Shown: positions 45,479 to 63,359 of the stretch, in pieces
Numbering within the stretch: position 1 is the stretch's first letter
How the letters are laid out: each line of letters opens with the position of its first letter
Source: Xenophilus azovorans DSM 13620
GTDB taxonomy: Bacteria; Pseudomonadota; Gammaproteobacteria; Burkholderiales; Burkholderiaceae_C
Direction of reading: 5' to 3'
Length of the DNA: 64,000 nucleotides
NCBI RefSeq assembly: GCF_000745855.1
Contig: NZ_JQKD01000004.1
Location: forward strand, 186,001 to 250,000
Position numbers and translations under genes: made by a program
The notes under the pieces: model-generated
Told to the model about the DNA's origin: nothing
What the model saw: only the letters and a program-made list of their open reading frames with translations
Databases searched by the model: none

Positions 45479-45504
45479 GCGGCGGCCCGGCTTCCGGGCG
45501 CCGC
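45479..45504 (+). repeat. Stable hairpin between the two binding-protein genes
   Basis: GCGGCGGCCCGG, loop CTT, CCGGGCGCCGC: an 11-bp stem with one bulged G in the 62-base gap between the paralogous binding-protein genes. No T-run follows. Such hairpins often protect upstream mRNA from 3' exonucleases or partly terminate transcription, raising the amount of the upstream binding protein. Confidence 0.55.
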
Positions 45505-45526
45505 TCCTTCAACGAGGAGACCGCCC

Positions 45527-46777
45527 ATGCGCGCCGGCTTGATTCAAACATTCGCAGCTGCCCTGTTCGCAGCCGCCTCGGCGGCCGCAGAAGCACAGGC
45601 CGCCGATCCGGTGCGCTTCGGACTGTGCTACGACCTCACCAAGATCTACGTCGCCGCGGTGCCGCAGGTGGCGCAGGCGGCCAAGGATTACGCCGATCTG
45701 CTCAACCTTCGCGGCGGGCTCGAGGGGCGGCCGATCCAGGTGATCGTGCAGGACCACGGCAACGAACCCCAGCGCGGCATCGACTGCTACGAGCGCCTCA
45801 AGCGCGAGGGCGTGATGGTCTTCGACTTCTTCTCCACGCCGGTGTCGCGCGCCGCGCTGCCGCGCATCATGCAGGACGGCAATATCCTCGTGCAGCCGCT
45901 GGTGGGGCGCGGCGACGCGGTGGACGGCGAGGTGTTCAAGAACGTCTTCGTACTGGCGCCCACGTACTGGGGTCAGGCCGCCAACATCATCAGTTACTTC
46001 AAGAAGCAGGCAGGCGGCAATCTGAAAGGCAAGAAGGTCGCGTTCCTCTACCTGGATACACCGTTCGGCAGAGAGCCGATGCCGGTCTTCGAAGCGCTCA
46101 AGCGCCTGGAGGGCTACGACTTCCAGACCTTCCCGTTCCCGGTGCCTGGCAACGACCAAAGCGCCGCCTTCGCGCAGATCCGTCGCTTCCAGCCCGACTG
46201 GGTGGTGCTGTGGTCCTTCTCGCCGCTGAACCCGATCTCGTTCCGCGAGATGCAGCGCAACGGCATCCCGATCGACCGCATGGTGACCGGCAACTGGATC
46301 AACGAGGTCGACATCAACAACTTCGGCGCCGCTGCCGCCAAGGGATTGAAGCGTTCTGCCGTGGTGAGCGGCGGCGCCGAACACCCTCTGGTGCAGGACA
46401 TCCTGCGAGAGCTGTACGACAAGGGCAAGGGCAATGGCGACCGCAAGCTGGTGGCCGATTCCTACTACAACACCGGCCTGGCCGTGTATTCCTCGGTGTT
46501 CGAAGGTGTGCGTCTGGCGATCAAGACGCAGGGCATGCCGCTGACGGCGGAAAAGATCCGCCAAGGCATGTACGGTCTGAAGAACTTCGACGCCAAGGGC
46601 TTCATGGCGCCGATCACGGTGACTCCACAAGACCACGGCGGCGGCGGCAAGACCCGCATCGACATGTGGGACGGCACGAAGTGGGTGCCGCAGACGCCCT
46701 GGTTCGCGGACTACACCGGCTTGGTGAACACGCTCATCAAGGCCAATTCGGCCGACTTCGCCAAAGCGAACAAGTGA
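45527..46777 (+). CDS. Periplasmic ABC binding protein (LivK-like), second copy
   Basis: 416 residues. Signal peptide (FAAALFAAASAAAEAQAA) then DPVRFGLCYDLTKIYVAAVP. It closely resembles the preceding protein along its full length (QDHGNEPQRGIDCYERLK, PTYWGQAANIISYFKKQAGG, DHGGGGKTRIDMWDGTKWVP), showing tandem duplication. Differences cluster in the ligand-lobe regions, so the pair may widen substrate range for one channel. AGGAG lies 7 bases before the ATG. The ATPase gene follows 28 bases later. Confidence 0.92.
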   Translation: MRAGLIQTFAAALFAAASAAAEAQAADPVRFGLCYDLTKIYVAAVPQVAQAAKDYADLLNLRGGLEGRPIQVIVQDHGNEPQRGIDCYERLKREGVMVFDFFSTPVSRAALPRIMQDGNILVQPLVGRGDAVDGEVFKNVFVLAPTYWGQAANIISYFKKQAGGNLKGKKVAFLYLDTPFGREPMPVFEALKRLEGYDFQTFPFPVPGNDQSAAFAQIRRFQPDWVVLWSFSPLNPISFREMQRNGIPIDRMVTGNWINEVDINNFGAAAAKGLKRSAVVSGGAEHPLVQDILRELYDKGKGNGDRKLVADSYYNTGLAVYSSVFEGVRLAIKTQGMPLTAEKIRQGMYGLKNFDAKGFMAPITVTPQDHGGGGKTRIDMWDGTKWVPQTPWFADYTGLVNTLIKANSADFAKANK

Positions 46778-46805: not shown

Positions 46806-47600
<795 letters not shown>

Positions 47601-47636: not shown

Positions 47637-48035
47637 TCACACCGGCACGAACACCGGCAGCGGCGACCCACCCTCGCTCGGTTGGAACCGCACCGCCACG
47701 CGCTGGCCGATGCGAATCGCGTCGGCATCGGCATCGACGATGTTGGTCATCATCGACGGGCCCTCGTCGAGCGTCACGTAGGCGACGACATAGGGCACCT
47801 CGGCACGGCGCATGACGCTGAAGCTGTAGATCGTGCCCTGCCCGCCGGCCTGTCGCCACTCGGTGTTCAGGCTGCCGCAGAACGGGCAGCCGTCGCGCGG
47901 ATAGTGGTGGTGCTCGCCGCAGTCGCGGCAGCGCTTGACGAGCAGCCGGCCCTCGGCGGCAGCATCCCAGAACGGCTTGGCGTCGGGGTAGACGGTGGGC
48001 GCCGGCATCTGGCGCCGGCCGATGTTCAGACTCAT
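47637..48035 (-). CDS. DUF35/OB-fold zinc-ribbon protein, thiolase partner B
   Basis: 132 residues. Zinc ribbon VKRCRDCGEHHHYPRDGCPF with two Cys-x-x-Cys pairs (about residues 34-53), followed by an OB-fold with YSFSVMRRAEVPYVVAYVTL. DUF35 proteins bind thiolase-like enzymes and are needed for their stability or activity, as in ChsH2-Ltp2 of steroid degradation. Its ATG overlaps the stop of thiolase-like gene B (ATGA), making that the partner. Last gene of the 53.5-47.6 kb unit. Confidence 0.9.
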   Translation of the reverse strand: MSLNIGRRQMPAPTVYPDAKPFWDAAAEGRLLVKRCRDCGEHHHYPRDGCPFCGSLNTEWRQAGGQGTIYSFSVMRRAEVPYVVAYVTLDEGPSMMTNIVDADADAIRIGQRVAVRFQPSEGGSPLPVFVPV

Positions 48036-49198
48036 GCGCGCTCCAGGATCAGGGTGGCACTGCCGTGCCGGGTGCCGAGCGAACCGCCTGTGCCGTGCGC
48101 GAGCGCAAGCCGGCAGTTCGGCACCTGCACCTTGGGGTGGGCCTCGCCGCGCAGCTGGCGAACGGCCTCGATCACCTTGGTCATGCCGCCGCGGTTACCC
48201 GGGTGGTTGTTGCACAGGCCGCCGCCGTCGGTGTTGAAGGGCAGCTTGCCGCTGCCCGAGATTAGGTTGCCGTCGCTGACGAAGCGGCCGCCCTGCCCCT
48301 TGGCGCAGAAGCCCAGGTCCTCCAGCGTGAGCAGCACGGTGATCGTGAAGCTGTCGTAGATCGACGCGTACTGGATGTCCGAGGGCTTCACGCCGGCCTC
48401 GGCGAACGCGGCCTTGCCGGTCCACGCCGCGCCGGTGGTCAGCAGGTCGACCTTGCCGCCGCTCTGCGCGCGCTGGTACTCGCCGGTGCCGATGATGTCG
48501 ACGACCGGACGCTCCAGGCTGCGCGCGATCTCGGGCCGCACCACCACCAGCGCGCCGCCGCCGTCGCTGATGACGCAGCAGTCCAGCCGGTGCAGCGGGT
48601 CGGCGATCATCGGCGAGCCGACCACGTCCTTCACCGTGACCACGTCGCGCACCATCGCGTGCGGGTTGTGCTGCGCGTGGTGCGAGGCGGCGACGCGGAT
48701 CCACGCGAGCTGCTCGCTCGTCGTGCCGTGCTCGTGCATGTGGCGCATCGCCGCCATCGCGTACATGTTGACCGTGGTCGGCGCATAGGGCAGCTCAAAG
48801 GGCACGTCGGGCGCGGGGCCGTAGTTGCGCGGCGCGGTGCCGGTGGCCATGCCCTCGGCCTTGGGCCGGCCGGCCAGCGTGATCAGCGCGACGTTGCAGC
48901 GCCCGGCGGCGATGGCGGCGGCGGCGTGCGCCACGTGCACCAGGTACGACGAACCGCCGGTCTCGGTGGTGTCCACGTGGCGCACTTTCATGCCGAGGTA
49001 GTCAACCATCGACAGCGCGCCCAGGCCGGGCGCATCGCCGGCGCAGAAGTAGCCGTCGACGTCCTTCAGCGTCAGCCCAGCGTCGGCCAGCGCGCCGCGC
49101 GCGACCTCGCCGTGCAGTTGCGCGACCGACTTGTCGTCCGCGCGCCGGATTGGGTGTTCGTAGGCGCCTGCGATGCAGGCGGAGTTCTTCAGACTCAT
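48032..49198 (-). CDS. Thiolase-like protein B (SCPx/Ltp2 type, no nucleophilic Cys)
   Basis: 388 residues of thiolase fold, lipid-transfer/SCPx subgroup. At the place where thiolases carry the Cys nucleophile (C-A-T-G), it has TTETGGSS. IYDSFTITVLLTLEDLGFC and LCNNHPGNRGGMTKVIEAVR retain other active-site loops. Cys-less members such as Ltp2 are aldolases that split beta-hydroxyacyl-CoAs by retro-aldol reaction rather than thiolysis. Coupled by 4-base overlaps to a MaoC gene upstream and a DUF35 gene downstream, the same partners as Ltp2 has. Aldolase function is inference from the family. Confidence 0.88.
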   Translation of the reverse strand: MSLKNSACIAGAYEHPIRRADDKSVAQLHGEVARGALADAGLTLKDVDGYFCAGDAPGLGALSMVDYLGMKVRHVDTTETGGSSYLVHVAHAAAAIAAGRCNVALITLAGRPKAEGMATGTAPRNYGPAPDVPFELPYAPTTVNMYAMAAMRHMHEHGTTSEQLAWIRVAASHHAQHNPHAMVRDVVTVKDVVGSPMIADPLHRLDCCVISDGGGALVVVRPEIARSLERPVVDIIGTGEYQRAQSGGKVDLLTTGAAWTGKAAFAEAGVKPSDIQYASIYDSFTITVLLTLEDLGFCAKGQGGRFVSDGNLISGSGKLPFNTDGGGLCNNHPGNRGGMTKVIEAVRQLRGEAHPKVQVPNCRLALAHGTGGSLGTRHGSATLILERA

Positions 49199-49590
49199 CG
49201 TGTTCTTTCCGCTGGCTTGATAGTGGCGGTGCCCTTGATCACGTCCTGGCTCTTGGCGTTGCGCACCCACACGTCGTACAGGGGCGGCTCGCTGCCGGCG
49301 CGCAGTTCGCCGCCGCCGGTCACGTCGTCGTCGATGCGCACCGGCTGCACGAACTTGATCTCCAGGTGGATCCTGTTCAGCATCTGCACGCCGAGCGTGT
49401 TCTTCAAGGCCTGCCAGATCAGCGCCACCGACATCGTGCCGTGGGCGATGATGCCGCCCATCGGGCTCTTGGCGGCGAATTCCTTGTCGACGTGGATCGG
49501 GTTGTAGTCGTTCGTCACCGCCGCATACTTCATGATGGTGTCGAAGTCGACGTGCTTGGTCGATGGTGTCAGTTGCGCCTGCACGGGCAC
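49195..49590 (-). CDS. MaoC-like hydratase subunit with catalytic motif
   Basis: 131 residues. NDYNPIHVDKEFAAKSPMGG followed by GIIAHGTMSVALIW is the intact hydratase-2 motif with catalytic Asp and His. At this half size the domain normally pairs with a second hotdog. The neighbouring gene at 49607 codes for such a motif-less MaoC domain, so the two probably form a heteromeric hydratase like ChsH1/ChsH2. The stop overlaps the thiolase-like gene B start (ATGA). Product would be a beta-hydroxyacyl-CoA for the aldolase-type protein. Confidence 0.88.
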   Translation of the reverse strand: MPVQAQLTPSTKHVDFDTIMKYAAVTNDYNPIHVDKEFAAKSPMGGIIAHGTMSVALIWQALKNTLGVQMLNRIHLEIKFVQPVRIDDDVTGGGELRAGSEPPLYDVWVRNAKSQDVIKGTATIKPAERTR

Positions 49591-49606
49591 TCCTCCTCTG
49601 CTGCGT

Positions 49607-50008
49607 CTAATGCGCCACCAGCGTCGTCATGACGCCGGTGAACAGCAGTTCGTTCGATCCCACGGCACGCGTCTCGCTGCGCACGCGCACCCACTTGCGT
49701 TCCTTCTTGATCTCCTTGTCGAGGCACCACACGTCGGTGCGGATGTTCTCGCCGATGCGCGGCATGCGCCAGACGTCGAAGGTCTGGCCGCCGTGCACGC
49801 CGCCGGGCGGGCGCGGCGAGTTGAGCGTCAGCACCGCGTCGATGACGATCATCGCCAGCATGCCGGCCGGCATCACACCGGGGTCGTCGTCGTTCGGGTA
49901 GACGGAACGCCATTTGGCGACGGTCGATTCGTCGACGGCAAAGTCGCGCGCGCCGTAGTGCTTGCCCGGCTCGTAGTGGGCGTAGTTGAAGATCGGTTTT
50001 TCGCTCAT
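49607..50008 (-). CDS. MaoC-like structural partner subunit (N-terminal hotdog type)
   Basis: 133 residues. FNYAHYEPGKHYGARDFAVD, PAGMLAMIVIDAVLTLNSPR and GGVHGGQTFDVWRMPRIGEN match the FAS1-like N-terminal MaoC domain, which lacks the D..N.P..H catalytic loop. Such domains complete the substrate tunnel of the catalytic partner, here most likely the protein encoded 16 bases downstream. Its ATG overlaps the stop of DUF35 gene A (ATGA). Start has an upstream AGGTGGAG sequence that can serve as ribosome binding site. Confidence 0.86.
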   Translation of the reverse strand: MSEKPIFNYAHYEPGKHYGARDFAVDESTVAKWRSVYPNDDDPGVMPAGMLAMIVIDAVLTLNSPRPPGGVHGGQTFDVWRMPRIGENIRTDVWCLDKEIKKERKWVRVRSETRAVGSNELLFTGVMTTLVAH

Positions 50009-50418
50009 GCGGGCTCCACCTGGGGAATCTTCTGTTCGCTGCCCGGGCGCGACTCGAAGCACACGCGCACCGGCATGCCGATGCGCACCTGCGCCGGGTC
50101 GCAGCGCAGCACGTTGCACATGAAGCGCAAGCCCTCGTCGAGGTCCACCAGCGCGAGCACGTAGGGCGTGTCGCCGGCGAAGGCGGCCAGCGGCGCGCGG
50201 TGGATCACCGAGAAGCTGGCGATGCGCCCGCCCCCGCCCGCCTTGTGCCAGGCCAGGTCGGTGGCGTGGCAGTGCACGCAGGCGTTGCGCGCGTAGAACT
50301 GCGCCTTGCCGCAGGCGCCGCAGCGCTGGTAGCGGAATTCGCCGAGGCTGGCGCCTTCCCAGTAGGTGCGGCTGATGCCGTCGGGCACCGGCACCGGCTT
50401 GGCTTGCACGTCGGCCAT
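50005..50418 (-). CDS. DUF35/OB-fold zinc-ribbon protein, thiolase partner A
   Basis: 137 residues. FRYQRCGACGKAQFYARNAC and then VHCHATDLAWHKAGGGGRIA give the zinc ribbon (two C-x-x-C pairs, about residues 32-54) and the start of the OB-fold. Paralogue of the protein encoded at 47637, here adjacent to thiolase-like gene A (2 bases apart) and overlapping the non-catalytic MaoC gene. Likely it recruits or stabilises thiolase-like protein A, and perhaps docks it to the MaoC heteromer as in the ChsH2 fusion of actinobacteria. Confidence 0.9.
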   Translation of the reverse strand: MADVQAKPVPVPDGISRTYWEGASLGEFRYQRCGACGKAQFYARNACVHCHATDLAWHKAGGGGRIASFSVIHRAPLAAFAGDTPYVLALVDLDEGLRFMCNVLRCDPAQVRIGMPVRVCFESRPGSEQKIPQVEPA

Positions 50419-50420
50419 GG

Positions 50421-51572
50421 TCAGACCCTCCCCAGCAGGATCGAGCAATGGCCCGAGAAGATGCCGCCCAGCGTGTGCGCAAGCGCCACCTCGGCGTCCT
50501 TCACCTGGCGCGGCCCGCATTCGCCGCGCAGCTGGCGCACCGCCTCGACCACATGGAACATGCCGCCCGCCGCGCCGGACGAGCCGTACGACAGCAGGCC
50601 GCCGTTGGTGTTGACCGGGAACCTGCCGCCGATCGCGAACTCGCCGGCCAGCGCCGCCGGCCCCGCCGCGCCGCGCTCGTAGAAGCCCATCGACTCGAGC
50701 GTGATGAGCAGCGTGCTGGTGAAGCAGTCGTAGATGTGCGCGCAGTCCACGTCGGCATGCTTCAGTCCGGCGTGGCCGAGCGCGTCGGCCACCGATTCGC
50801 GGCAGCCGAAGTCCACCAGCGACGGCGCGGCGAAGATGTGCTCGTGCGTGTGGCCCTCGCCGGTGGCGAGCAGCTCGACGGAACGCTTGGGCCTGTCGCG
50901 CCCGGTCTCGGAAGCACTGACGATCACCGCCGCGCCGCCGTCGGAGACGGGACAGCAGTCGAGCATACGCAGCGGCGACGCAATCACCTTGGACCTGCGC
51001 ACGTCGTCCATCGTGATCGGCTTCTTCATGTGCGACTGCGGGTGCAGCGCCGCGTTGGCGCGCTGGTTCACCGCCACCGCGGCGAGGTGGTCGCCGTTCA
51101 GCCAGCCTTCGTGAAAGTAGACTTGCGCGGCCATCGCGAAAGCCGCCGGCACGCTCATGCCGTAGGGCTGCTCGTACTGCGCGTGTCCCACGTCGGCGAG
51201 CGCGGCCTGCACCTTCTCGCCCATGCCGGTGAGGCGGTTGTCGCCGGTCACGCACAGCACGTGGCGGCACATGCCCGAGCGCACCAGCGACTCGGCGTGC
51301 CGCACCAGCAGCCCGCCGGTCATGCCTCCCATGCAGATCGAGGCGTTGACCTTGGGCCCGAAGCCGAGATACTCGGCGAGCACGCCGCCGAGCATCAGCT
51401 GCGGCGAGGCGAAAGAATACGCGGTGAGCAGGCCGTCGATGTCCGACAGCTTCAACCCCGCATCGGCGAGCGCGCCGAGGGTGGCCTCGGTGTGCAGCGA
51501 CATGCAGGTGCTTTCCGGCAGCGAGCCGACCTGAGTGTCGTACACGCCGCTGACGATGGCTTTGCTGGCCAT
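50421..51572 (-). CDS. Thiolase-like protein A (SCPx/Ltp2 type)
   Basis: 383 residues of thiolase fold. The region of the nucleophile reads ASICMGGMTGGLLVRHAE: a Cys is present but three residues before the expected place, so thiolysis is doubtful. The His loop (usually GHPxGxxG) reads SYGSSGAAGGMFHVVEAVR, with the His lost. HIYDCFTSTLLITLESMGFY matches protein B. Both features suggest an aldolase-type or otherwise non-thiolytic enzyme. Paired with DUF35 gene A. The upstream gene is the flavin oxidoreductase at 51595, 22 bases away. Confidence 0.87.
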   Translation of the reverse strand: MASKAIVSGVYDTQVGSLPESTCMSLHTEATLGALADAGLKLSDIDGLLTAYSFASPQLMLGGVLAEYLGFGPKVNASICMGGMTGGLLVRHAESLVRSGMCRHVLCVTGDNRLTGMGEKVQAALADVGHAQYEQPYGMSVPAAFAMAAQVYFHEGWLNGDHLAAVAVNQRANAALHPQSHMKKPITMDDVRRSKVIASPLRMLDCCPVSDGGAAVIVSASETGRDRPKRSVELLATGEGHTHEHIFAAPSLVDFGCRESVADALGHAGLKHADVDCAHIYDCFTSTLLITLESMGFYERGAAGPAALAGEFAIGGRFPVNTNGGLLSYGSSGAAGGMFHVVEAVRQLRGECGPRQVKDAEVALAHTLGGIFSGHCSILLGRV

Positions 51573-51594
51573 GGTTCTCCTTGGTGGGGTCCGT

Positions 51595-52722
51595 TCAGGG
51601 CAGGCTGACGACGAGGTCGCGCTGCAGGCGGCGCAACTGCTCGACGGCGCCGTCGACCAGATCGGCCATGATGTCCTTCGCGGGCCGGCGGCCCTTGACG
51701 AGCCCGCCCGCCTGCCCCGCGATGTTGTAGAAGAGGTCGTGCCGCCCGGCGGCGAGCGCCGCGGCGAGGAAGTCCTCCATCAGGATGCGCTGGTGCGGCG
51801 TTTCCAGCGTCGGCAGGCCCGACTCGGCCCAAGCCTGCGAAATCTCGCCGTGGAAAGCGCGCACCGTCTTGCCCGTCCAGATCTTGCTGATTCGAAAGGC
51901 CTCCGAATCGGAGGCGACGATCTGGTCCTTGCAGGCGTCGAACAACTCGCCCTCGTCGGCAACGAGGAAGGCGGTGCCGATCCAGACCGCCTGCGCGCCG
52001 AGCGCGAGCGCGGCCACGATGCCGCGGCCGTCGGCGATGCCACCCGCGGCGAGCACCGGCGTCGGACTGACGGCGTCGACCACCTGCGGGATCAGCGGCA
52101 GCGTGGCCACGGTACCCGTGTGGCCGCCCGCCTCGGTGCCCTGCGCCACGATGGCGTCGACGCCGCTCTTCTGCTGCCGCACCGCGTTGCGCACCGAACC
52201 GGACAGGCCGATTAGCTTCATGCCCTGAGCGCGCGCACGCTCGAGCAGGAAGTCGGGGTCGCCCAGGCCGGCGGCAAACACCGGCACGCGCTCGTCGAAG
52301 ATGACCTCGAGCACCGACTTCGCGTACTCGATGTTGACCACCGTCTCGTCGGCCGGCTTCACGTCGGGCAGGCCGTAGCGGCGAATCAGCTCCTGCATGA
52401 ACGCGGCGTGCTTGGGGAAGCGCGCGCGGATCTCGTCGCGCACCCCGGTGCGCGTCGGCGGCGCGTCGGCAATACGCGCCGGCAGCAGCAGGTCCACGCC
52501 GAAGGGCTTGTCGGTCAGCGCGCGCACGGCGCGGATGCGCCGGCGCGTCTCCTCCGGCGACAGGCCCGAGCAGCCGAGCACGCCGAGCCCGCCGGCCTGC
52601 GACACCGCGGCCACCAGCGCCGGCGGCGTGGCCCGGCCGCCCACGCCCATGCCGGCCAGGAAGATAGGCACCTCGATGCCCCAGCCATCGCAGAACGCGT
52701 TGTGCAGCACCGTGCGGCTCAT
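51595..52722 (-). CDS. Nitronate monooxygenase/enoyl reductase-like FMN protein
   Basis: 375 residues. IEVPIFLAGMGVGGRATPPA, AIVAQGTEAGGHTGTVATLP (FMN loop with the active-site His) and VLAAGGIADGRGIVAALALG then QAVWIGTAFLVADEGE are intact motifs of the NMO family. In steroid and terpenoid clusters related proteins are annotated as 2-nitropropane dioxygenase-like and are thought to act on unsaturated CoA esters or protect against nitro toxins; the true role is open. It sits 7 bases after a crotonase gene and leads into the thiolase/MaoC module, all apparently co-transcribed. Confidence 0.88.
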   Translation of the reverse strand: MSRTVLHNAFCDGWGIEVPIFLAGMGVGGRATPPALVAAVSQAGGLGVLGCSGLSPEETRRRIRAVRALTDKPFGVDLLLPARIADAPPTRTGVRDEIRARFPKHAAFMQELIRRYGLPDVKPADETVVNIEYAKSVLEVIFDERVPVFAAGLGDPDFLLERARAQGMKLIGLSGSVRNAVRQQKSGVDAIVAQGTEAGGHTGTVATLPLIPQVVDAVSPTPVLAAGGIADGRGIVAALALGAQAVWIGTAFLVADEGELFDACKDQIVASDSEAFRISKIWTGKTVRAFHGEISQAWAESGLPTLETPHQRILMEDFLAAALAAGRHDLFYNIAGQAGGLVKGRRPAKDIMADLVDGAVEQLRRLQRDLVVSLP

Positions 52723-52729
52723 GACCTCT

Positions 52730-53491
52730 TCACTTGAACGTCGGCTTGCGCTTGGCGCGGAACGCGGCCACGCCTTCCTTCACGTCGTCGGTCTGGAACA
52801 GGAAGGGGAAGGCGTCGATGGCGTAGCGCATGTCGTCGCCGCCTTTGCCCCTGTTGTAGAACGACTTGGCCATCTGCAGCGCCATCTGCGGCTTGGCCGC
52901 GAGCTTCTCGGCGAAGGCCATCGCCTCGTCCATCAGCTTGTCGGGCGCCACCGTGCGCAGCGCGAGGCCGAGCGCCACGGCCTCGGCGGCCGGGATCGGC
53001 TCGCCGAGCATGCTTAACTCCTTCGCCTTCGGCCGGCCGACGATCTGGTGCAGGCGCAGCAGCGCGAAACCCGGCAGCAGGCCGAGCTGGATCTCGGGCA
53101 CGCCGAACTTCGCGCGTTCGGAGGCGAGGATGAAGTCGCAGGCGATCGCGAGTTCGAATCCGCCGCCGAACGCGATGCCGTTGACCGCCGCGATCAGCGG
53201 CTTGCGGCAGCGCTCCGGCGCCTCGAGCACCGGCAGCACGCTGGCGATGAAGTCGCGCGCCTGCTCCGGGGTCTCGGGGAAGGAGCTGATGTCGGCGCCG
53301 GCGCAGAAGGCCTTGTCGCCGCGCCCGGTGACGATGCCGACACGGATCTCGGGGTCGGCCTCGACCATCGCGAGGCCTTCGGTGACACCCTGGCGGATGC
53401 CGACGGAGATGGCGTTCAGCTTGGTGGGCTCGTCGAGGGTCAGGACCGCGACGCGGCCCTTCTTCTCGAATTCGACGCTGCCGATGCGCAT
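52730..53491 (-). CDS. Enoyl-CoA hydratase, both catalytic Glu present
   Basis: 253 residues. GDKAFCAGADISSFPETPEQ, GIAFGGGFELAIACDFILAS and KFGVPEIQLGLLPGFALLRL contain the oxyanion hole and both hydratase Glu, so (S)-specific 2-enoyl-CoA hydration is likely. The ATG chosen has AGGAG 7 bases upstream; longer readings add a basic, low-complexity extension across the promoter region. It is the first gene of the 53.5-47.6 kb unit, and a perfect 14-bp palindrome lies 93 bases upstream as a likely operator. Confidence 0.91.
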   Translation of the reverse strand: MRIGSVEFEKKGRVAVLTLDEPTKLNAISVGIRQGVTEGLAMVEADPEIRVGIVTGRGDKAFCAGADISSFPETPEQARDFIASVLPVLEAPERCRKPLIAAVNGIAFGGGFELAIACDFILASERAKFGVPEIQLGLLPGFALLRLHQIVGRPKAKELSMLGEPIPAAEAVALGLALRTVAPDKLMDEAMAFAEKLAAKPQMALQMAKSFYNRGKGGDDMRYAIDAFPFLFQTDDVKEGVAAFRAKRKPTFK

Positions 53492-53663: not shown

Positions 53664-54189
53664 TTACCGGGCGCCCAGCCGCCGCTGACCGGCAACACCT
53701 AGCCGACGAACAGTCCGCGGCCGGGCTGCACAGCTAGGCAGCGAACTCGGCCGCCTCGCGCGCGCCGACCGGCCGAGAGGCACCTCGCGCTTCAGGCGCT
53801 CCTGGAAGCGCGGATTGGCCTTCACCTCGGGCGGGAAGTAGGTCGGCGTGTCGACGAAGTTGAACGCCAGCGCATTGACCTGCACGCCGTGGCGCGTGAC
53901 CTCCGCGCCGACCGCCTGCGCCCAGGCCAAGTGCGCGCCGCGCGCGGCCCTGTACGACGACGCGCGGTTCTGGCCGCGCAGCGCCGCGGTATGCCGAGGT
54001 TGAGAGCAGCGCGTCGACCGTGCCGGCGTCGCGCACGATGCGCTCGGCCGCGGCGGGGTCGTCGAGCCGCTCGTCGCTGGCGACGACGTGGGCGCCGTGC
54101 GCCGCAAGCGCTTCGCACCGCGCCGGGCCGACGAAGACCGTCGACTGCGTGACCAGCACGCGCTGGCCTTTCAGGACCTCGGATGCCAC
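53664..54189 (-). pseudogene. Degenerate halohydrin dehalogenase-like SDR pseudogene
   Basis: From a GTG at 54189 the frame reads GQRVLVTQSTVFVGPA, containing T-x4-F-x-G, the nucleophile-pocket motif of halohydrin dehalogenases in place of the SDR glycine motif. After VDALL the text jumps, in another frame, to RASSYRAARGAHLAWAQ with the Y-x3-R pair typical of these enzymes, then FVDTPTYFPPEVKANPRFQE. It returns to the first frame for AREAAEFAA, hits TAG at 53734-53736, and after another shift reads LFVG, TAG (53699-53701), VLPVSGGW. About 50-60 residues seem deleted in the middle. So: a decayed gene with at least three frame changes and two in-frame stops. Living relatives remove halide from vicinal haloalcohols. 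Confidence 0.75.
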
Positions 54190-54235
54190 GGCGCTCGTCG
54201 CCTCGCTCCGTCGGACGCGCCGGGCGCGACCCGCG

Positions 54236-55845: not shown

Positions 55846-56628
55846 TCACCTGCATGTCCGCAAGCCGCCGTAGCTAGCCCACGGGATCGCGACGAGGTAG
55901 CCGGCATCGACCGGCAGGTTGATGCCGGTGATCGCCGAGGCCTGCTGCGAAGCGAGGAACGCGACTGCCTGGGCGATTTCCCGGGCCTGCACCAGCCGCC
56001 CGAGTGCGCTGTTGGCGGTCATGTCCTGCGAAGCGAGGGTGCGCGTGGCCACGCCCTTCTCGAGCGCCGGCGTCCGCGTGAAGCCGGGCGAGACCGCGTT
56101 CATGCGCACTTTCTTCGGGCCCCATTCGGCAGCCAGGCATTCGGTCAGGTTGATCACGCCCGCCTTGGCCGGCCCGTACGAATGCAGCGGCCCGGAGCCC
56201 ATGCCAGCCACCGAAGCGATGTTGACGATCGCGCCGCCGCCCGCGCGCGCCATCGCCGCGCCAAAGCGCGCGCAGCACAGATAGGTGCCGCGCAGGTCGA
56301 CGCGGGCGACGAAGTCCCACTCGCGCAGAGTCAGCTCCTCCGGCGGCAGCGTGCGCTGCAGGACGCCCGCGCTGTTGACGAGCACCCGCGGCACGCCGCA
56401 CTGGGCCTCGACGGCTGCCACGGCCGCATCGACCGAAGCCTCGTCACCCACGTCGAGCGCTACCGCAGTGCCACCGTTGGCGGCAGCCACGGCCTGCGCG
56501 GCAGCGAGGTTGCGGTCGGCCACCACCACGCGCGCACCGGCCGCGGCAAGCACTTGCACGCAGGCCTCGCCGATGCCGCTGGCGCCGCCGGTCACCACCG
56601 CCACCTGGTCCGAAAAGTCGATCTTCAT
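55846..56628 (-). CDS. SDR-family oxidoreductase, 3-hydroxyacyl-CoA dehydrogenase-like
   Basis: 260 residues, classical SDR. VTGGASGIGEACVQVL, VVVADRN (Asp after the second strand, NAD preference), NSAGVLQRTL, NIASVAGMGSG and the pair YGPAK (HSYGPAKAGVIN). All catalytic residues are there. It closes the minus-strand unit that runs from beyond 64 kb, one base from the synthetase gene. Likely oxidises a hydroxyacyl-CoA or an alcohol intermediate. It differs from the PECR-type SDRs of this window by its intact Tyr-Lys pair. Confidence 0.9.
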   Translation of the reverse strand: MKIDFSDQVAVVTGGASGIGEACVQVLAAAGARVVVADRNLAAAQAVAAANGGTAVALDVGDEASVDAAVAAVEAQCGVPRVLVNSAGVLQRTLPPEELTLREWDFVARVDLRGTYLCCARFGAAMARAGGGAIVNIASVAGMGSGPLHSYGPAKAGVINLTECLAAEWGPKKVRMNAVSPGFTRTPALEKGVATRTLASQDMTANSALGRLVQAREIAQAVAFLASQQASAITGINLPVDAGYLVAIPWASYGGLRTCR

Positions 56629-56629: not shown

Positions 56630-58141
56630 TCAGTCTCCGCTCGCTTCGCTGGCCAATTCGGCGCGCAGCACCCGCTTCAGCACCTTGCCGGAGGGCAGGC
56701 GCGGCAGCGTCTCGCGCAGCACGAGCTGACGCGGCAGCTTGAAGCCGCCCAGCTTGCCTCGACAGAAGGCCTGCAGTTCCTCGAGCGCGAGCGTGGTGCC
56801 CGGCCGCAGCACCACCACCGCCGCCACGCGCTCGCCCCACTGCGCGTCGGGCAGGCCGACCGCCGCGGCTTCCAGCACCTGCGGCAGCTGGTAGAGCACG
56901 CGCTCGACCTCGCTCGACGCGATGTTCTCGCCGCCGCTGATGATCATGTCCTTCTTGCGATCGGTGAGGAACAGGAAGCCCTCGGCGTCGACGTAGCCGA
57001 CGTCGCCGGTGCGGAGCCAGCCGCCCGCGTGGAAGCTCGCGGCGGTCTTGTCCGGATCGCGCCAGTAGCCCGCCGTGACCTTGGGCCCGCGCAGGCAGAT
57101 CTCGCCAGCCTCGCCTGCCGGCAATGCCCGGCCGTCGTCGTCGCACACGCGCAGCTCGACGTGCGGCAGCACGCGCCCGGTCGAGCCGATCTTCTCGATC
57201 TCGCGGCCGGCTTCCATCAGCGTGTCGCCCGAGCAGCTTTCGGTCAGGCCGTAGCCGTCGATGTAGCGCCCATTGGGGAACAGCGAGCGGAACTCGCGGA
57301 TGCGCTCCTCAGGGGTGCGCTCGCCGCCGCCGATCTGCCAGCGCAGGCTCGAGAGGTCGAAGCGCGCGCGATCGGGCAGCGCGAGCAGCCGGTTCAGCAT
57401 CACCGGCGCCATCCACGCCGCGGTGAGCTTCTCGCGCTCGATCAGCGCCAGCGTCGGCTCGGGGTCGAACTCGCGCAGCACCGCGAGCAGGCCGCCCATC
57501 TGCAGCACCGCCAGGCCGGGCAGGTCGAACGCGCCGACGTGGTAGAGCGGGCCGACGACGAGCAGCCGCTCGTTGCCGTGCAGGCCGAGCACCGCGATGT
57601 GGTCGAGGCACTTCCAGTGGTAGTTGGCGTAGCTGTGGATCACGCCCTTCGGACGGTCGGTCGTGCCCGAGGTATACATGAGCCGGAACAGGTCGTGGGG
57701 CTGGCGCACGCAGGGCTCGGCCAAAGGCTCGGCCGCGGGGCCGATGCGGCGGCTGTCCGACTGCGCCGCCTCGTCGACGACGGCGACGTTGGCGAAGCCG
57801 CCGGCCAGCGCGCGCAGTTCTTCGTCCACGAGCAGCAGCTTCACGCCCGCGTGGCCGACGATGTAGGCGACCTCGTCGGCGCCCAACCGGTAGTTGATCG
57901 GCAGCAGCACCGCGCCGAGGTGGCTGACCGCGAGCGAGAGCTCGATGAACGCGGCGCTGTTCTTCATCAGCAGCGCGACGATGTCGCCCTCGCCGATGCC
58001 GCGCGCGCGCAGGCTCGCCGCGGTGGCGGCGATGCGCGCCGCGAGATCGCCGTAGCTCAGTCCCTGATCGCGGTACAGCAGCGCCGGCCGCGCCGGCTCG
58101 GCGCGCGCCCAGCGCAGGATGGCGGCACTCAGGTTGACCAT
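56630..58141 (-). CDS. AMP-forming acyl-CoA synthetase
   Basis: 503 residues. Phosphate loop MYTSGTTDRPKGVIHSYANY (~residue 158), GYGLTESCSGDTLMEAG, GGWLRTGDVGYVDAEGFLFL, DRKKDMIISGGENIASSEVE and the C-terminal LPSGKVLKR with catalytic Lys. All ANL motifs are canonical. Length and motifs fit the short/medium-chain or aryl-CoA ligase class. The start is the ATG 20 bases after the dehydrogenase stop; longer readings invade that gene. It probably activates the acid for this unit. Confidence 0.92.
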   Translation of the reverse strand: MVNLSAAILRWARAEPARPALLYRDQGLSYGDLAARIAATAASLRARGIGEGDIVALLMKNSAAFIELSLAVSHLGAVLLPINYRLGADEVAYIVGHAGVKLLLVDEELRALAGGFANVAVVDEAAQSDSRRIGPAAEPLAEPCVRQPHDLFRLMYTSGTTDRPKGVIHSYANYHWKCLDHIAVLGLHGNERLLVVGPLYHVGAFDLPGLAVLQMGGLLAVLREFDPEPTLALIEREKLTAAWMAPVMLNRLLALPDRARFDLSSLRWQIGGGERTPEERIREFRSLFPNGRYIDGYGLTESCSGDTLMEAGREIEKIGSTGRVLPHVELRVCDDDGRALPAGEAGEICLRGPKVTAGYWRDPDKTAASFHAGGWLRTGDVGYVDAEGFLFLTDRKKDMIISGGENIASSEVERVLYQLPQVLEAAAVGLPDAQWGERVAAVVVLRPGTTLALEELQAFCRGKLGGFKLPRQLVLRETLPRLPSGKVLKRVLRAELASEASGD

Positions 58142-58161
58142 CGCGTTCTTCGCTGCGCGCC

Positions 58162-59334
58162 TCAGTAAGACCGCGGCATGCCGAGGTCGTGGTTGGCCAC
58201 GTAGTTGAGGATCATCTCCTCGGACACCGGCGCGAAGCGGAACAGCCGTGCGTCGCGCCACAGCCGCTCGACGTGGAACTCGCTGGCGTAGCCCATGCCG
58301 CCCATCGTCTGCATCGCGCGCTCGGTGGCGCGCGCCACCGCCTGCGCGGCCAGCAGCTTGGCGGCGTTGGCCTCGCTGCCGTAGGGCAGGCCCATGTCGC
58401 AGTTGGTCGCGGCCTTCAGGTTCAGCAGTTTCGCCGCCTCGACCTCGACGTGGCATTGCGCGAGCGGGAACTGCAGGCCCTGGTAGCTGGAGACCGGCTT
58501 GTCGCCGAACACCTTGCGCTCGTTGGCGTACTGCACGGCGAGCCGGATCGCCAGCGTGCCGGTGCCTGCGAGCGCCGCGGTGGTGACGATGCGCTCGGTG
58601 TTGAGCACGTCGAGCAGTTCGTGCCAGCCGCGGTGCAGCGTTCCCACGAGTTCGTCGGCGCGCACGCGCACGTCGTCGAAGAAGACGCTGCTCGACGCGA
58701 GCGTGCGCGTGCCGACCTTGTCGATGGCGGTGTGCGTCAGCCCCTGGCGCTCGACGTCGACCATGAACATCGACAGGCCGTCGCTGCGCGACTTGCATTC
58801 CGCGAGCTTCTTCGTGCGCGCCACGACCAGCATCTTGGCCGCGTCGGGCACGCCGGTGATCCAGATCTTGCGGCCGTTGAGGCGCCAGCCGTCGCCGTCG
58901 GCCTCGGCGTAGCTGCGCAGCTCGAGCGTGTTGGTGCCGGCGTCGGGCTCGGTCAGCGCCATGCAGCAGTTGATCTCGCCCGACACGATCTTCGGCAGCA
59001 GCTCGGCCTTCATCGCCGGCGTGCCGAACTTCGACAACGCGACGCCACCGAAGATCGGATTGATCATGAACAGCTGGCCCACGGTGGCGCCCCCGCCGCA
59101 GGCCGCGAGCGTCTCGACCACCAGCGCGAGCTCGAGCATCCCGAGCCCGGCGCCGCCCACCGCGGTGGGCAAGGCCGCGCCGCACAGGCCCGCCTCGCAG
59201 ACGGCGAGCCAGAACTCCTTGGGGAACTGCTTGGCGGCATCCTGCTTGCGCCAGTACTCGGTGCCGAAGCGGTCGCCGACCTTGCGGGCGGCCTCAATCA
59301 TCAGGTTCTGTTCGTCGGTGAGTCGGAAATCCAT
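58162..59334 (-). CDS. Acyl-CoA dehydrogenase
   Basis: 390 residues starting DFRLTDEQNLMIEAARKVGD. ALTEPDAGTNTLELRSYAEA in the middle domain (GTN instead of GSD), NERKVFGDKPVSSYQGLQFP and MGGMGYASEFHVERLWRDAR in the C-terminal part; the tail VSEEMILNYVANHDLG is of the dicarboxyl/branched type. Glu in the SEFHVERLWRDA segment is available as base. Encoded between E2 and the synthetase genes, so the unit links a 2-oxoacid dehydrogenase with beta-oxidation. Confidence 0.91.
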   Translation of the reverse strand: MDFRLTDEQNLMIEAARKVGDRFGTEYWRKQDAAKQFPKEFWLAVCEAGLCGAALPTAVGGAGLGMLELALVVETLAACGGGATVGQLFMINPIFGGVALSKFGTPAMKAELLPKIVSGEINCCMALTEPDAGTNTLELRSYAEADGDGWRLNGRKIWITGVPDAAKMLVVARTKKLAECKSRSDGLSMFMVDVERQGLTHTAIDKVGTRTLASSSVFFDDVRVRADELVGTLHRGWHELLDVLNTERIVTTAALAGTGTLAIRLAVQYANERKVFGDKPVSSYQGLQFPLAQCHVEVEAAKLLNLKAATNCDMGLPYGSEANAAKLLAAQAVARATERAMQTMGGMGYASEFHVERLWRDARLFRFAPVSEEMILNYVANHDLGMPRSY

Positions 59335-59361: not shown

Positions 59362-60591
59362 TCAATCGAACAACAGCCGCGTCGGATGCGCCAGCGCATC
59401 AACGATCGCGGCCAGCAATGCGGCACCGCCGACGCCGTCCAGCACCCGATGGTCCACGGAGAGCGTGAGCGCGACCTCGCGCCGCAGCACCGGCGCGCCC
59501 TGCGCGTCGGGGCGGAACAGCTCGCGCACCGCGCCCACGCCGAGGATCATGGACTGGCCCGGCACGATGATCGAGGCCATCGCCGCCAGCCCGTGCATGC
59601 CGGCGTTGGACACCGTGATCGCGCCGCCGGCCATCTCGTCGGCCGCCAGCCGCCCAGCGCGTGCGCGCTCCACCAGCGCGTTGGCCTGCCGCGCGAGCGC
59701 ACCCAGGCCCACGCGGCCGACGTTGCGCACCATCGGCACGACGAGACCGCGCTCGGTGTTCACCGCGATGCCGACGTCGGGCGCATCGAGCAGCAACGCG
59801 CCCTGCTCGCACCACACGCGGTTCAGGTCCGGATGTGCGACGAGCGCGCGGCCGACCGCGGCGACGATGAAGTGGTTGAGCGTGAGGCGCGGCTCGGCTT
59901 GCGGATCCTTCAGCCGCGCATACAGCTCGAGCAGCGCCGAGACCTCGGCCTCGCGCACGAGGTAGAAGTGCGGCACCTGCTGCTTGGCGGCCACCATGCG
60001 CGAGGCGATGGTGTGCTGCGGCGCGGTGAACGGCAGCACGCGGCCGCCGGGGGCGGGCGCCGCGACCACAGGCGCCGCCGCGGGCAACCCGGCGGCAGCC
60101 GCCGCCTCGACATCGCGGCCGCGCACGCGCCCGCGCGGGCCGGAGCCGGCGACGCGCGACAGATCGATGCCCTGTCGCTTGGCCAGCTGGCGCGCCCACG
60201 GCGTGACGGGTCGGCGCTCGGCGACGGACGCAGTGACCGCGGCAGCGGCACCCGCAGGCGTGCCGGCCCGCGCCGGGCCGGGCGGCGGTGTGGCCGGTGC
60301 TTCCGCCGCCTGCGCCGTCCGCTGCGGCTCGGCCGCCGCAGCGCCGCCGTCGAGCCCATCGTCCCAGTGCCCGACCACGTCGCCGACGGCCACCGTCTGC
60401 CCCACGGCGACCAGTGGCGCGCCCATCACGCCGTCGTGCTCGGCGGCGATCTCGCTCGCGGCCTTGTCGTTCTCGACCAGGAAGACGCATTCGCCCGCCT
60501 TGAAGCGCGCGCCGGGCGGCACCGTCCACTCGGCCAGCACGCCCTCGGTCATCGTCAGGCCCAGCTTGGGCATCAGCCAGGAGTGGCGCAC
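59362..60591 (-). CDS. 2-oxoacid dehydrogenase E2 (dihydrolipoamide acyltransferase)
   Basis: 409 residues in three parts. Lipoyl domain 1-80 with LVENDKAASEIAAEHDG (Lys 43 lipoylated); after a Pro/Ala-rich linker a peripheral subunit-binding domain RRPVTPWARQLAKRQGIDLS to GRVRGRDVEAA (about 145-180); then the acyltransferase core ending LSVDHRVLDGVGGAALLAAI with the catalytic His 381 and Asp 385. It transfers the acyl group from lipoamide to CoA. E1 alpha and beta genes are upstream in the same unit; a lipoamide dehydrogenase gene is not in the window. Acetoin- or branched-chain-type substrate cannot be told apart. Confidence 0.93.
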   Translation of the reverse strand: MRHSWLMPKLGLTMTEGVLAEWTVPPGARFKAGECVFLVENDKAASEIAAEHDGVMGAPLVAVGQTVAVGDVVGHWDDGLDGGAAAAEPQRTAQAAEAPATPPPGPARAGTPAGAAAAVTASVAERRPVTPWARQLAKRQGIDLSRVAGSGPRGRVRGRDVEAAAAAGLPAAAPVVAAPAPGGRVLPFTAPQHTIASRMVAAKQQVPHFYLVREAEVSALLELYARLKDPQAEPRLTLNHFIVAAVGRALVAHPDLNRVWCEQGALLLDAPDVGIAVNTERGLVVPMVRNVGRVGLGALARQANALVERARAGRLAADEMAGGAITVSNAGMHGLAAMASIIVPGQSMILGVGAVRELFRPDAQGAPVLRREVALTLSVDHRVLDGVGGAALLAAIVDALAHPTRLLFD

Positions 60592-61383: not shown

Positions 61384-62397
61384 TCACTCCAGGGTGCGCC
61401 GCAGTGCGGCGACGATGCCGGCGGCGCCGACGTTGTAGCCCTGCTCGAGGGACTTGGCGAAAGGCACCGGCATGAAGGGCGCGCCGACGCGCACCACCGG
61501 CGCGTCGAGATCGTCGAAGCCCTCGTCGGCCATCGTCGCGGCGATCTCGGCGCCGACGCCGAAGGCCTGCACCGCCTCGTGAACGACCACCGCGCGATGG
61601 GTGCGCGCCAGCGAGCCGAGCACGGTGGCGCGGTCCCACGGCTGCAGGCTGCGCAGGTCGATCACCTCGACCTCCACGCCTTCGGCGGCGAGCTGGCGCG
61701 CGGCCTCCAGCGACGCGGCCACGGTGGCGCCGTAGGTCACCACGGTGGCGTCGCGCCCGGGGCGCACGATGCGCACGATGCGCGCGGTGCCGAGCGTGGC
61801 GACGGCCGCGCGGTCCACCGGGCCCTTGCTGCCGTACAGCCCCTTGTGCTCGACGAAGACTACCGGGTCGGGGTCGCGGATCGCGGTACGCAGCAGCGCA
61901 TAAGCATCTCCCGGATTCGAAGGGCAGACCACCTTCAGCCCCGGCACGTGGGCGAGCCAAGCCTCGAGGCACTGCGAGTGCTGCGGCCCGGCATTCAGGC
62001 CGCCGCCGTGCGGCGTGCGCAGCACCATCGGCACGCTGCACTGGCCGCCGAACATGAAGCGCGCCTTCGCCGCCTGGTTGACGAGCGCGTCCATCGCCAG
62101 CGTCACGAAGTCCATGAACATGATCTCGACCACCGGCCGCAGGCCCGACAGCGCGGCGCCCACCGCGGCCGAGACGATCGAGGCCTCGGAGATCGGCGTG
62201 TCGATCACGCGCTGGGGGCCGTAGGCTTCGAGCAAGCCGCGCGTGGCCTTGAACGAGCCGCCAGGCGCGCCGATGTCCTCGCCCATCACGACCACGCTCG
62301 GGTCGTCGGCCATCGCATCGTGCAGCGCCTGCGCGACCGCGGCCATGGTCTTCATCTCGCCAGCCGGCGCCACCGGAGTCTCAGCCACCGCGTTCAT
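61384..62397 (-). CDS. 2-oxoacid dehydrogenase E1 beta subunit
   Basis: 337 residues. VVVMGEDIGAPGGSFKATRG, DTPISEASIVSAAVGAALSG (the TPP-binding Glu), EIMFMDFVTLAMDALVNQAA and GLNAGPQHSQCLEAWLAHVP are family-defining. With E1 alpha it binds TPP and decarboxylates a 2-oxoacid. Its ATG overlaps the E1 alpha stop (ATGA). Sequence fits the pyruvate/acetoin/branched-chain group. Confidence 0.94.
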   Translation of the reverse strand: MNAVAETPVAPAGEMKTMAAVAQALHDAMADDPSVVVMGEDIGAPGGSFKATRGLLEAYGPQRVIDTPISEASIVSAAVGAALSGLRPVVEIMFMDFVTLAMDALVNQAAKARFMFGGQCSVPMVLRTPHGGGLNAGPQHSQCLEAWLAHVPGLKVVCPSNPGDAYALLRTAIRDPDPVVFVEHKGLYGSKGPVDRAAVATLGTARIVRIVRPGRDATVVTYGATVAASLEAARQLAAEGVEVEVIDLRSLQPWDRATVLGSLARTHRAVVVHEAVQAFGVGAEIAATMADEGFDDLDAPVVRVGAPFMPVPFAKSLEQGYNVGAAGIVAALRRTLE

Positions 62398-63359
62398 CGT
62401 GCCTCCACGGCGGTGTAGACGCCGGCCAGCGCCGGCGCGAAGGTCGGCGCCGCGTCGGCCCGGGCCGCGGCGATGGCGACCTCGATGCGGGCGGCGATCT
62501 CGCGCCCGGCGTCTTCGAGCGCCGCCTCGTCCACGCCGGCTGCAAGCAGCGTGGCGCGCGCGCGTTCGAGCGGGTCGCCCTTGGCGCCGGGGTCCGGCTC
62601 GGCAGGGCTGCGGTACTTCTGCGGATCGCCCTCGAAGTGGCCGCGCACGCGGTGCGTCATGCACTCGAGCACGCGCGGCCCGGCACCGCCACGGATCGCG
62701 GCCACCGCGCGCGCGGCAGCGTCGGCCGCCGCGAGCGCGTCGTTGCCGTCGACCTTCTCGTGCGCGATGCCGAACGCCGCCGCCAGCCCCTCGAGCCGCG
62801 CGGCGAACTGGCGCGCGGTGGGCGAGAACTCGCTCCAGCCGTTGTTCTCGCACACGAGCAACAGCGGCGCCTTCCACAGCGCGGCCATGTTGAGCGTCTC
62901 GTGTAGCACGCCTTCGGCCATAGCGCCGTCTCCGAAGAAGCTCACCGCGAGGCCGCCGGTGCCGCGCACCGACTGCGCGATGGCGCTGCCGAGCGCGATC
63001 GGGATGCCCGCGCCGACGATGCCGTTGGCGCCGAGGATGCCCAGGCTGGTGTCGGCCACGTGCATCGAGCCGCCGCGGCCGCCGCAGATGCCGCCGGCAC
63101 GGCCCATCACCTCCTTGAAGAAGGCGTCGAGCCCGAGCCCGCGGGCGAGCACGTGGCCGTGGCCGCGGTGCGTGGTGGCCAGCGTGTCGGCCGGGCCGAG
63201 CGCGGAGGCCACGCCCGCGGCGATGGCTTCCTGGCCGATGCTCAGGTGGATGAAGCCCGGCACCTCGCCGTCGGCGAACAGCCGCGTGAGCGCGGACTCG
63301 GCCTGGCGCACGAGCTGCATCGTGCGGTACAGCGCCAGCAGGCGGGCGGTGTCAGCCAC
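62394..63359 (-). CDS. 2-oxoacid dehydrogenase E1 alpha subunit
   Basis: 321 residues from a GTG start overlapping the upstream crotonase by 8 bases. The TPP motif GDGAMAEG ... ENN is at residues 143-173; GICGGRGGSMHVADTSLGIL and GANGIVGAGIPIALGSAIA precede it and resemble acetoin dehydrogenase E1 alpha as well as pyruvate dehydrogenase. THRGHGHVLARG is the acetoin-type loop. Start region RLLALYRTMQLVRQAESALT is normal. The partner is encoded directly downstream. Confidence 0.93.
   Translation of the reverse strand: MADTARLLALYRTMQLVRQAESALTRLFADGEVPGFIHLSIGQEAIAAGVASALGPADTLATTHRGHGHVLARGLGLDAFFKEVMGRAGGICGGRGGSMHVADTSLGILGANGIVGAGIPIALGSAIAQSVRGTGGLAVSFFGDGAMAEGVLHETLNMAALWKAPLLLVCENNGWSEFSPTARQFAARLEGLAAAFGIAHEKVDGNDALAAADAAARAVAAIRGGAGPRVLECMTHRVRGHFEGDPQKYRSPAEPDPGAKGDPLERARATLLAAGVDEAALEDAGREIAARIEVAIAAARADAAPTFAPALAGVYTAVEAR

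Follow-up and report, generated by a model that had tools for sequence, protein, structure and literature searches.

Retro-aldol cleavage of coenzyme A (CoA) thioesters by thiolase-fold enzymes has been characterised mainly for steroids. The aldolase CtSal of Comamonas testosteroni works with the catalytic pair Tyr302 and Cys304, and the substitutions C304A, C304S and C304H abolish its activity; Ltp2 uses Tyr294 and Tyr344 (PMC12329534). In C. testosteroni TA441, both activities were retained with the MaoC and DUF35 parts expressed separately (PMC12502768). Here we examined a 64,000 bp stretch (the window; contig NZ_JQKD01000004.1, positions 186,001 to 250,000) of the genome of Xenophilus azovorans DSM 13620, in which no match to the tested steroid-ring gene, KshA, was found. 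With a probability of about 0.72, an eight-gene operon of this window serves to degrade CoA thioesters by a route whose last step is a retro-aldol cleavage rather than a thiolysis; it would combine a hydratase-aldolase unit with a second aldolase, as a non-steroid variant of the Sal/Ltp2 kind. The original prediction had taken this actinobacterial type of system to be new to betaproteobacteria, but proteobacterial Sal/Shy and ChsH1-ChsH2-Ltp2 systems have been published (PMC12329534, PMC11321319, PMC12502768).

All eight genes were confirmed in one minus-strand run at 47637-53491, where they had been predicted. They encode, in order of transcription, an enoyl-CoA hydratase/isomerase (ECH), a flavoprotein, a first thiolase fold (ThA) and its DUF35 gene (DufA), two MaoC proteins (MaoC1 and MaoC2), and a second thiolase fold (ThB) and its DUF35 gene (DufB). 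As also foreseen, Cys-less thiolase folds, DUF35 partners and motif-less and motif-bearing MaoC proteins are here separate genes. Pfam assigned 7 of the 8, with MaoC1 as the exception. The gaps at successive junctions from ECH to DufB are 7, 22, 2, -4, 16, -4 and -4 bases, as measured in locus L020 and the same in the window; the 4-base overlaps, expected at most junctions, are present at only three of seven (DufA/MaoC1, MaoC2/ThB and ThB/DufB). L020, from Comamonadaceae bacterium ALPHA2B, represents the window's own species, and its operon proteins are 99-100% identical to those of the window. ThA and ThB are both under purifying selection, with omega of 0.082-0.105 and 0.086-0.116, respectively (six pairs each); DufB and MaoC2 are less constrained (omega up to 0.45 and 0.32). 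Since the order and strand of the operon are kept in 17 loci and the omega of ThA and ThB is 0.08-0.12, the arrangement is not due to chance.

We aligned both thiolase folds to thiolase 7yvy, CtSal (9myr), Ltp2 (6ok1), BbsB (7pxp) and 4u4e. The position of the thiolase nucleophile is occupied by Gly83 in ThA and Gly82 in ThB, with no thiolase Cys in either, so that the predicted Cys-less fold stood up to the alignment that had been named as its check. ThA does have a Cys80 three residues before Gly83, where its relatives have Ala, Ser, Gln, Glu and other residues. Further along, ThA reads Tyr281-Asp-Cys283-Phe and ThB Tyr281-Asp-Ser283-Phe; the position of Ltp2 Tyr344 is Ser331 in ThA and His332 in ThB. 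All ThA and all close ThB sequences share the Gly and a Tyr at the CtSal Tyr302 column, which is the HDxF His of thiolases. In the widest alignment, of 162 rows that included the 27 best-scoring from 200 genomes of the phylum and 17 from the host genome, all 141 rows with Gly have Tyr, and all 19 rows with Cys have His (16) or Asn (3); the remaining two are L160, with Ser/His, and 7pxp, which was not covered at the nucleophile column. CtSal and Ltp2, the two aldolases studied in the literature, fall in the Gly/Tyr group.

Within this group we compared two acid positions, those of CtSal residues 304 and 352; position 352 corresponds to Ltp2 Tyr344 and to the GHP His of thiolases. The combinations were Ser/His (77), Cys/Ser (25), Ala/His (18), Cys/His (14), Cys/Gln (3) and His/Tyr (1). 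The Tyr/Cys pair of CtSal is present in ThA and in all 25 sequences of its Cys/Ser group; this set is a single group in the tree, and hence represents few events rather than 25. Thus, by its residues ThA reads as a CtSal-type Tyr/Cys aldolase. Tyr281 and His332 of ThB are kept in 16 of 16 close ThB rows, from which the divergent ThB-like L035 (Tyr/Ala/His) and L062, a true thiolase, were set aside. By analogy with the layout of Ltp2, ThB may be a Tyr/His-type aldolase with His332 as a plausible acid. On the other hand, both proteins could be ordinary SCP2-type or BbsB-type thiolases that, with a DUF35 protein, split a beta-ketoacyl-CoA with CoA; they belong to the PF22691 family, NCBIfam names them 'thiolase domain-containing protein' and similar, and in the tree BbsB branches next to the Gly/Tyr group, closest among the sequences outside it. 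Since the nucleophile Cys is replaced by Gly, and the HDxF His by Tyr, throughout the aligned ThA and close ThB sequences, we regard such a thiolase as very improbable.

The two thiolase folds share 34% identity and the two DUF35 proteins 38%. In a FastTree phylogeny of 120 thiolase-like sequences, rooted on true thiolases, ThA was one of 67 members of a clade with support 1.0, and ThB grouped with the structure 4u4e in a clade of 31 (0.999). CtSal paired with Ltp2 (0.876) outside both clades, with one sequence of each used, and the group of ThA and ThB had a support of 0.918. The window-like subclade of ThA, with 25 members, stands on a long branch (0.33), but with a support of 0.0 its precise limits are insecure. 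The 15 DufB proteins of the close ThB loci formed one clade (0.999), the deeper nodes of the DUF35 tree being weak, and the DUF35 proteins beside the divergent ThB-like matches of L035 and L050 fell elsewhere. A C4 zinc pattern was present in 97 of 97 DUF35 proteins, including the L020 copies of the window proteins, after 2 of 99 were dropped for short cover or a stop. A recent duplication of the thiolase/DUF35 pair was ruled out by the identities and the separate clades. The description of the module as duplicated is misleading, since ThA and ThB belong to two old families that came to stand side by side in a single clade.

The MaoC proteins matched the expectation of one with and one without the catalytic motif. 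In MaoC2 the D-x4-H motif is intact (Asp28/His33, invariant in 26 rows), by which it is assigned as the active hydratase subunit. The motif is absent from MaoC1, whose 29 aligned rows share invariant residues that include R66, P67, G69, Q75, C95 and K98. At E<=1, 9 of 29 members of the MaoC1 family matched PF13452 (best 2.2e-5) and 4 of 29 matched PF22622, the N-terminal domain of MFE-2 hydratase-2 (best 0.032), and the best PDB match of the MaoC1 profile was 5cpg (E=0.0044). MaoC1 is probably an inert hot-dog half of the hydratase. No fusion among DUF35, MaoC1, MaoC2 and ThA, which would have pointed to physical contact, was found in the loci compared; a stop codon follows MaoC2 in L045 and L050, and at the same place L077 contains ambiguous bases. 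In the L037 genome, a second MaoC1/MaoC2-like pair (recognised by eye; L124, 1869-4783) lies beside an acyl-CoA dehydrogenase and an ECH, on the opposite strand of the contig carrying the ThA unit.

A ThA scan of the genome collection gave 75 loci. DUF35, MaoC1 and MaoC2 were all present within 5 kb of ThA in 47 of them, with the ThA gene of L079 on the opposite strand from the rest of the unit. These 47 full-unit loci belong to alpha- and betaproteobacteria, plus one Panacagrimonas metagenome-assembled genome (L032); the other gammaproteobacterial loci were without part of the four-gene set. A DUF35 gene lay within 1.5 kb of ThA in 68 of 75 loci. ThB more than 85% identical to that of the window was found in 17 of 75, immediately behind MaoC2 in all 17 and shortened in L028. 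Schlegelella koreensis ID0723 and Caenimonas sedimenti HX-9-20 are among the bacteria that have both the ThA unit and ThB. The flavoprotein was more than 60% identical in 18 of 75; as regards its FabK-kind family, FabK shares 30% identity with IpdC, a protein of steroid-ring degradation (PMC5380842). MaoC1 was found in 4 of 300 genomes of the order, and the ThB family in 7 of 274 genomes of the class (5 above cut-off), the host being included in both counts. In four neighbourhoods of the latter set (L113-L116), ThB-DufB matches were found with no MaoC1/MaoC2 match in the stretches read, of which L114 and L116 end at contig edges; the ThB match of L116 was below cut-off. In most of seven plasmid regions, ThB stands among ligases, short-chain dehydrogenases/reductases (SDRs) or acyl-CoA dehydrogenases, with a MaoC protein of about 290 aa in 3 of 7, a shorter MaoC in 2 and none listed in 2; in one of them (L123), ThB is not immediately followed by the DUF35 gene. 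ThA-DufA-MaoC1-MaoC2 is thus a standing unit and ThB-DufB a separate module.

Both have been seen on plasmids. In Delftia acidovorans (L118, NZ_CP065696.1), ThB-DufB is accompanied by two acyl-CoA dehydrogenases, a ligase, a MaoC, an ECH and an SDR, and transposases of IS1071 and of a further Tn3-family element flank the set, which thus resembles a mobile catabolic cassette. In Roseovarius indicus DSM 26383, plasmid pRIdsm_01 (L098), typed as conjugative, carries the whole ThA-DUF35-MaoC1-MaoC2 unit near insertion sequence elements, with ligases, a TRAP transporter and acyl-CoA dehydrogenases.

The tight operon, in which MaoC2 and ThB overlap by ATGA in 14 of the 16 loci measured and ThB and DufB also share such an overlap, would suit the originally predicted single physical complex, in which one hydratase feeds two successive aldolase centres. 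We found no evidence for such a complex and consider it unlikely, as ThB-DufB occurs without the MaoC pair in the stretches read, the close DufB proteins form a clade of their own, and CtShy-CtSal showed no significant channeling (PMC12329534), although contact would be compatible with these points.

A steroid side-chain role, as in the original prediction, found no support in the one marker searched, KshA (PF19298, KshA_C), which had no match in the host; of ten other unit-bearing genomes, nine were likewise without a match. The same model was positive in the control genome G093, which carries a CtSal-like protein, and in the unit-bearing genome of L069. Since the host is without KshA and the control genome has it, a steroid substrate is unlikely. 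The operon has the same parts list as ChsH1-ChsH2-Ltp2 and Shy-Sal, the ThA motif is close to that of Sal, and KshA does accompany the unit in the L069 genome, all of which would fit a betaproteobacterial Sal/Ltp2 ortholog set for steroid or bile-acid side chains. With CtSal and Ltp2 branching outside both the ThA and ThB families, and with DUF35 zinc ligands that are C4, unlike the C3H1 of Shy, in addition to the distribution of KshA, the one steroid gene searched, we give such an ortholog set little credence.

For the preferred non-steroid route, we infer the aldolase chemistry, the partners of the subunits and the order of the steps as follows. An imported acid would be converted to its CoA ester by the ligase at 56630-58156 and dehydrogenated by the acyl-CoA dehydrogenase at 58162-59334. 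A MaoC1/MaoC2 heteromer would then hydrate the product, with MaoC2 giving the Asp/His dyad and MaoC1 shaping the substrate pocket. From the resulting beta-hydroxyacyl-CoA, ThA-DufA would release a ketone, an aldehyde or a 2-oxo acid in free form and leave a short acyl-CoA, with Tyr281 taking the proton of the beta-hydroxyl and Cys283 protonating the enolate, as in CtSal. ThB-DufB, of the other lineage, would be a second retro-aldolase, in which Tyr281 serves as the base and His332 stands where Ltp2 has its acid Tyr344; its substrate may be the next, shortened intermediate or a different compound.

A free carbonyl product is in keeping with the neighbouring genes, since Baeyer-Villiger monooxygenases (BVMOs) and 2-oxoacid dehydrogenases consume free carbonyl compounds of the sort that a retro-aldolase, not a thiolase, would release. 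BVMO/FMO-like open reading frames (ORFs) were present in 12 of 75 loci and 2-oxoacid dehydrogenase (E1/E2) ORFs in another 12, the window's own species among the latter. The Pfam check covered three of the monooxygenases, and some are without the strict BVMO fingerprint. In L040, 56 bases separate the end of MaoC2 from a monooxygenase gene on the same strand, and in the L037 genome the monooxygenase lies on the same contig and strand, downstream of the unit. For L037, L039, L040 and L061, the only PF00743 match of the genome is the one in this neighbourhood (places matched by coordinate arithmetic); the counts ranged from 1 to 19 in 16 chosen genomes, ten of which were picked for having the neighbour, so that the rate is not unbiased. 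Mutual exclusion of the two gene kinds was considered and given no weight, with both present in 0 of 75 loci and about 1.9 expected by chance. In L032, a BVMO-like gene beside the unit (5283-7196) is split by an in-frame TAG.

Several observations weigh against this reading. Neither kind of carbonyl-handling gene was found in 51 of 75 loci, 37 of them with at least 11 kb available, the operon contains no monooxygenase in the window or its clade (the host has a 639-aa BVMO-like ORF on the same contig, at a distance of about 127 kb), and such neighbours can be coincidental. The matches of MaoC1 are weak, and hhalign of MaoC1 against MaoC2 gave nothing useful (probability 5.6). The host paralogues L156 (Ala/Tyr, contig C33), L157 (Asn/Phe, C10) and L159 (Asp/Gln, C5) keep Gly/Tyr with odd acid positions, and the rule that one acid is always kept is therefore imperfect. 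ThB, in which His332 would be the candidate acid, has a Ser at the position of the CoA-binding Arg216 of CtSal in 16 of 16 close rows. As C304S kills CtSal (PMC12329534), Ser283 of ThB would be insufficient alone.

The Ser283 and missing Arg of ThB, together with the occurrence of ThB-DufB without a MaoC1/MaoC2 match (L113-L116) or near the MaoC of about 290 aa (3 of 7 plasmid regions), could mean that ThA alone is an active aldolase. ThB-DufB would then have a structural or CoA-binding role, or would belong, as an aldolase, to an unrelated pathway and merely ride in the operon. The retention of Tyr281 and His332 in 16 of 16 close rows, the ThB omega of about 0.1 and the fixed place of ThB behind MaoC2 in 17 loci speak for a working second aldolase instead, and leave the idea of a lone active ThA possible but doubtful.

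Further genes follow upstream of the operon on the same strand (Table 1). Relatives of the ligase occupy the same position in related loci, and L026, L029, L030, L033 and L034 have much the same upstream order, minus the tannase-like gene. The latter was tried as an esterase of a Baeyer-Villiger route and dropped, as it matched only L020, of the window's own species, among the loci compared. Between it and ECH, overlapping out-of-frame ORFs on the minus strand (53664-54459) have the look of a broken SDR; the piece 53664-54107 scored 26.4 bits against PF13561, just below the cut-off of 27. On the other side, a LivF-type gene also neighbours the unit in several relatives, and the adjoining transporter set of the window includes two tandem LivK-type binding proteins (44220-46777, by eye). 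The host genome is of 6.5 Mb in 132 contigs and has 19 PF22691 matches. Against NF006010/PRK08142 (cut-off 462), ThB passed with 727.6 bits and ThA, at 228.7, fell below.

Table 1. Genes of the operon and its flanks, with positions in the window and the matches behind each assignment
Feature	Position	Strand	Matches and remarks
ECH: crotonase-family enoyl-CoA hydratase/isomerase	52730..53491	-	PF00378 E=1.6e-57
NMO/FabK-kind FMN (flavin mononucleotide) oxidoreductase	51595..52722	-	PF03060 E=2e-61; TIGR03151 FabK 222 bits vs cut-off 453
ThA: thiolase fold, predicted Tyr/Cys-type CoA-dependent retro-aldolase	50421..51572	-	PF22691; PDB matches 4u4e, 9myr (CtSal), 6ok1 (Ltp2)
DufA: zinc-ribbon/OB-fold (DUF35), probable ThA partner, C4 zinc ligands	50005..50418	-	PF12172 + PF01796
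MaoC1: motif-less, probable inert hot-dog half of hydratase	49607..50008	-	no Pfam match of its own
MaoC2: (R)-hydratase-type MaoC subunit, Asp28/His33	49195..49590 (GTG start)	-	PF01575 E=2.2e-19
ThB: thiolase fold, predicted Tyr/His-type retro-aldolase	48032..49198	-	PF22691; NF006010/PRK08142
DufB: DUF35, probable ThB partner	47637..48035	-	PF12172 + PF01796
Tannase-like gene	54236-55855	-	
SDR	55846..56628	-	PF13561
AMP-forming acyl-CoA ligase, likely substrate-activating	56630..58156	-	PF00501; PRK06145 833.8 bits, just below cut-off 850
Acyl-CoA dehydrogenase	58162..59334	-	PF00441/PF02770/PF02771
E2 of 2-oxoacid-dehydrogenase-type complex	59362..60591	-	PF00198, PF00364, PF02817; TIGR01349 below cut-off
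E1 beta subunit	61384..62388 (start approximate)	-	PRK09212 336 bits, above cut-off 321
E1 alpha subunit	62394..63359	-	PF00676; TIGR03182 below cut-off
LivF-type ABC ATPase, named by eye	46806..47600	+	end of branched-chain-amino-acid-type uptake set converging on the operon

A more far-reaching and less likely reading is that proteobacteria in general use retro-aldol side-chain cleavage by Cys-less thiolases to degrade beta-branched acids other than steroids. The acid residues would then come in three or more interchangeable designs (Tyr/Cys, Tyr/His and Tyr/Tyr), two of them in series here, and the product would pass as a ketone to a BVMO in some lineages, while others would feed a 2-oxo acid to a 2-oxoacid dehydrogenase dedicated to it. 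If so, a good share of the PF22691 genes named 'thiolase domain-containing protein' or 'acetyl-CoA acetyltransferase' would be aldolases, separable by two alignment columns; a PF22691 match above cut-off was found in 67 of 200 genomes of the phylum sample. Many catabolic genes would then be re-labelled, and the natural Cys, His and Tyr variants would serve as a test of the acid residue of CtSal. Such units would also be candidates for orphan steps, for example from 3-(4-sulfophenyl)butyrate to 4-sulfoacetophenone. The (1-hydroxycyclohexyl)acetyl-CoA lyase (EC 4.1.3.35) is another such case. The genes for the sulfophenylbutyrate step were under study and unpublished in 2013 (PMC3746432). Our literature search, which covered few subscription papers, returned no later paper naming them, no four-gene unit outside steroid work and no Ser/His type.

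Among described proteins, BbsA-BbsB benzoylsuccinyl-CoA thiolase (7pxp) likewise combines a thiolase fold with a DUF35 partner; unlike ThA and ThB, BbsB has the thiolase-like His-Ala-His at the other three columns, the nucleophile column being uncovered in the stretch used. The closest PDB sequence to both ThA and ThB is the 'Thiolase' structure 4u4e, which has the Gly/Tyr/Ser/His pattern of ThB and, to our knowledge, no known activity. In the ibuprofen pair IpfD-IpfE, IpfE is a DUF35 protein. This pair resembles the operon by its description: it is described as a thiolase yielding propionyl-CoA from an aromatic side chain in a 'retro-aldolase' step, whose substrate is hydroxylated by a dioxygenase rather than a MaoC (PMC9195938).

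CtSal-CtShy acts on the C5 side chain of bile acids in C. testosteroni. This system and the operon both have a thiolase fold with Gly at the nucleophile column, a Tyr/Cys pair in the motif YDC[YF] (in ThA), a DUF35 partner and a MaoC hydratase one step earlier, but Shy is a DUF35 domain fused to one homodimeric MaoC, with C3H1 zinc ligands (PMC12329534, PMC11321319). The operon has instead a separate C4 DUF35 protein and a two-gene MaoC pair, and ThA, with Ser rather than Gln at the 352 column, lies outside the Sal branch. With Ltp2-ChsH1-ChsH2 of actinobacteria, which corresponds to ORF40-44 of C. testosteroni TA441, the operon would share an inert and an active MaoC and an aldolase with a DUF35 partner (PMC12502768). 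Ltp2 reads YDHF with Tyr344 as acid, whereas the operon has YDCF with Ser in ThA and YDSF with His in ThB, two aldolases rather than one, and a host without KshA. On the evidence, the operon would work like the Sal and Ltp2 systems, yet its thiolase folds belong to neither the Sal nor the Ltp2 clade.

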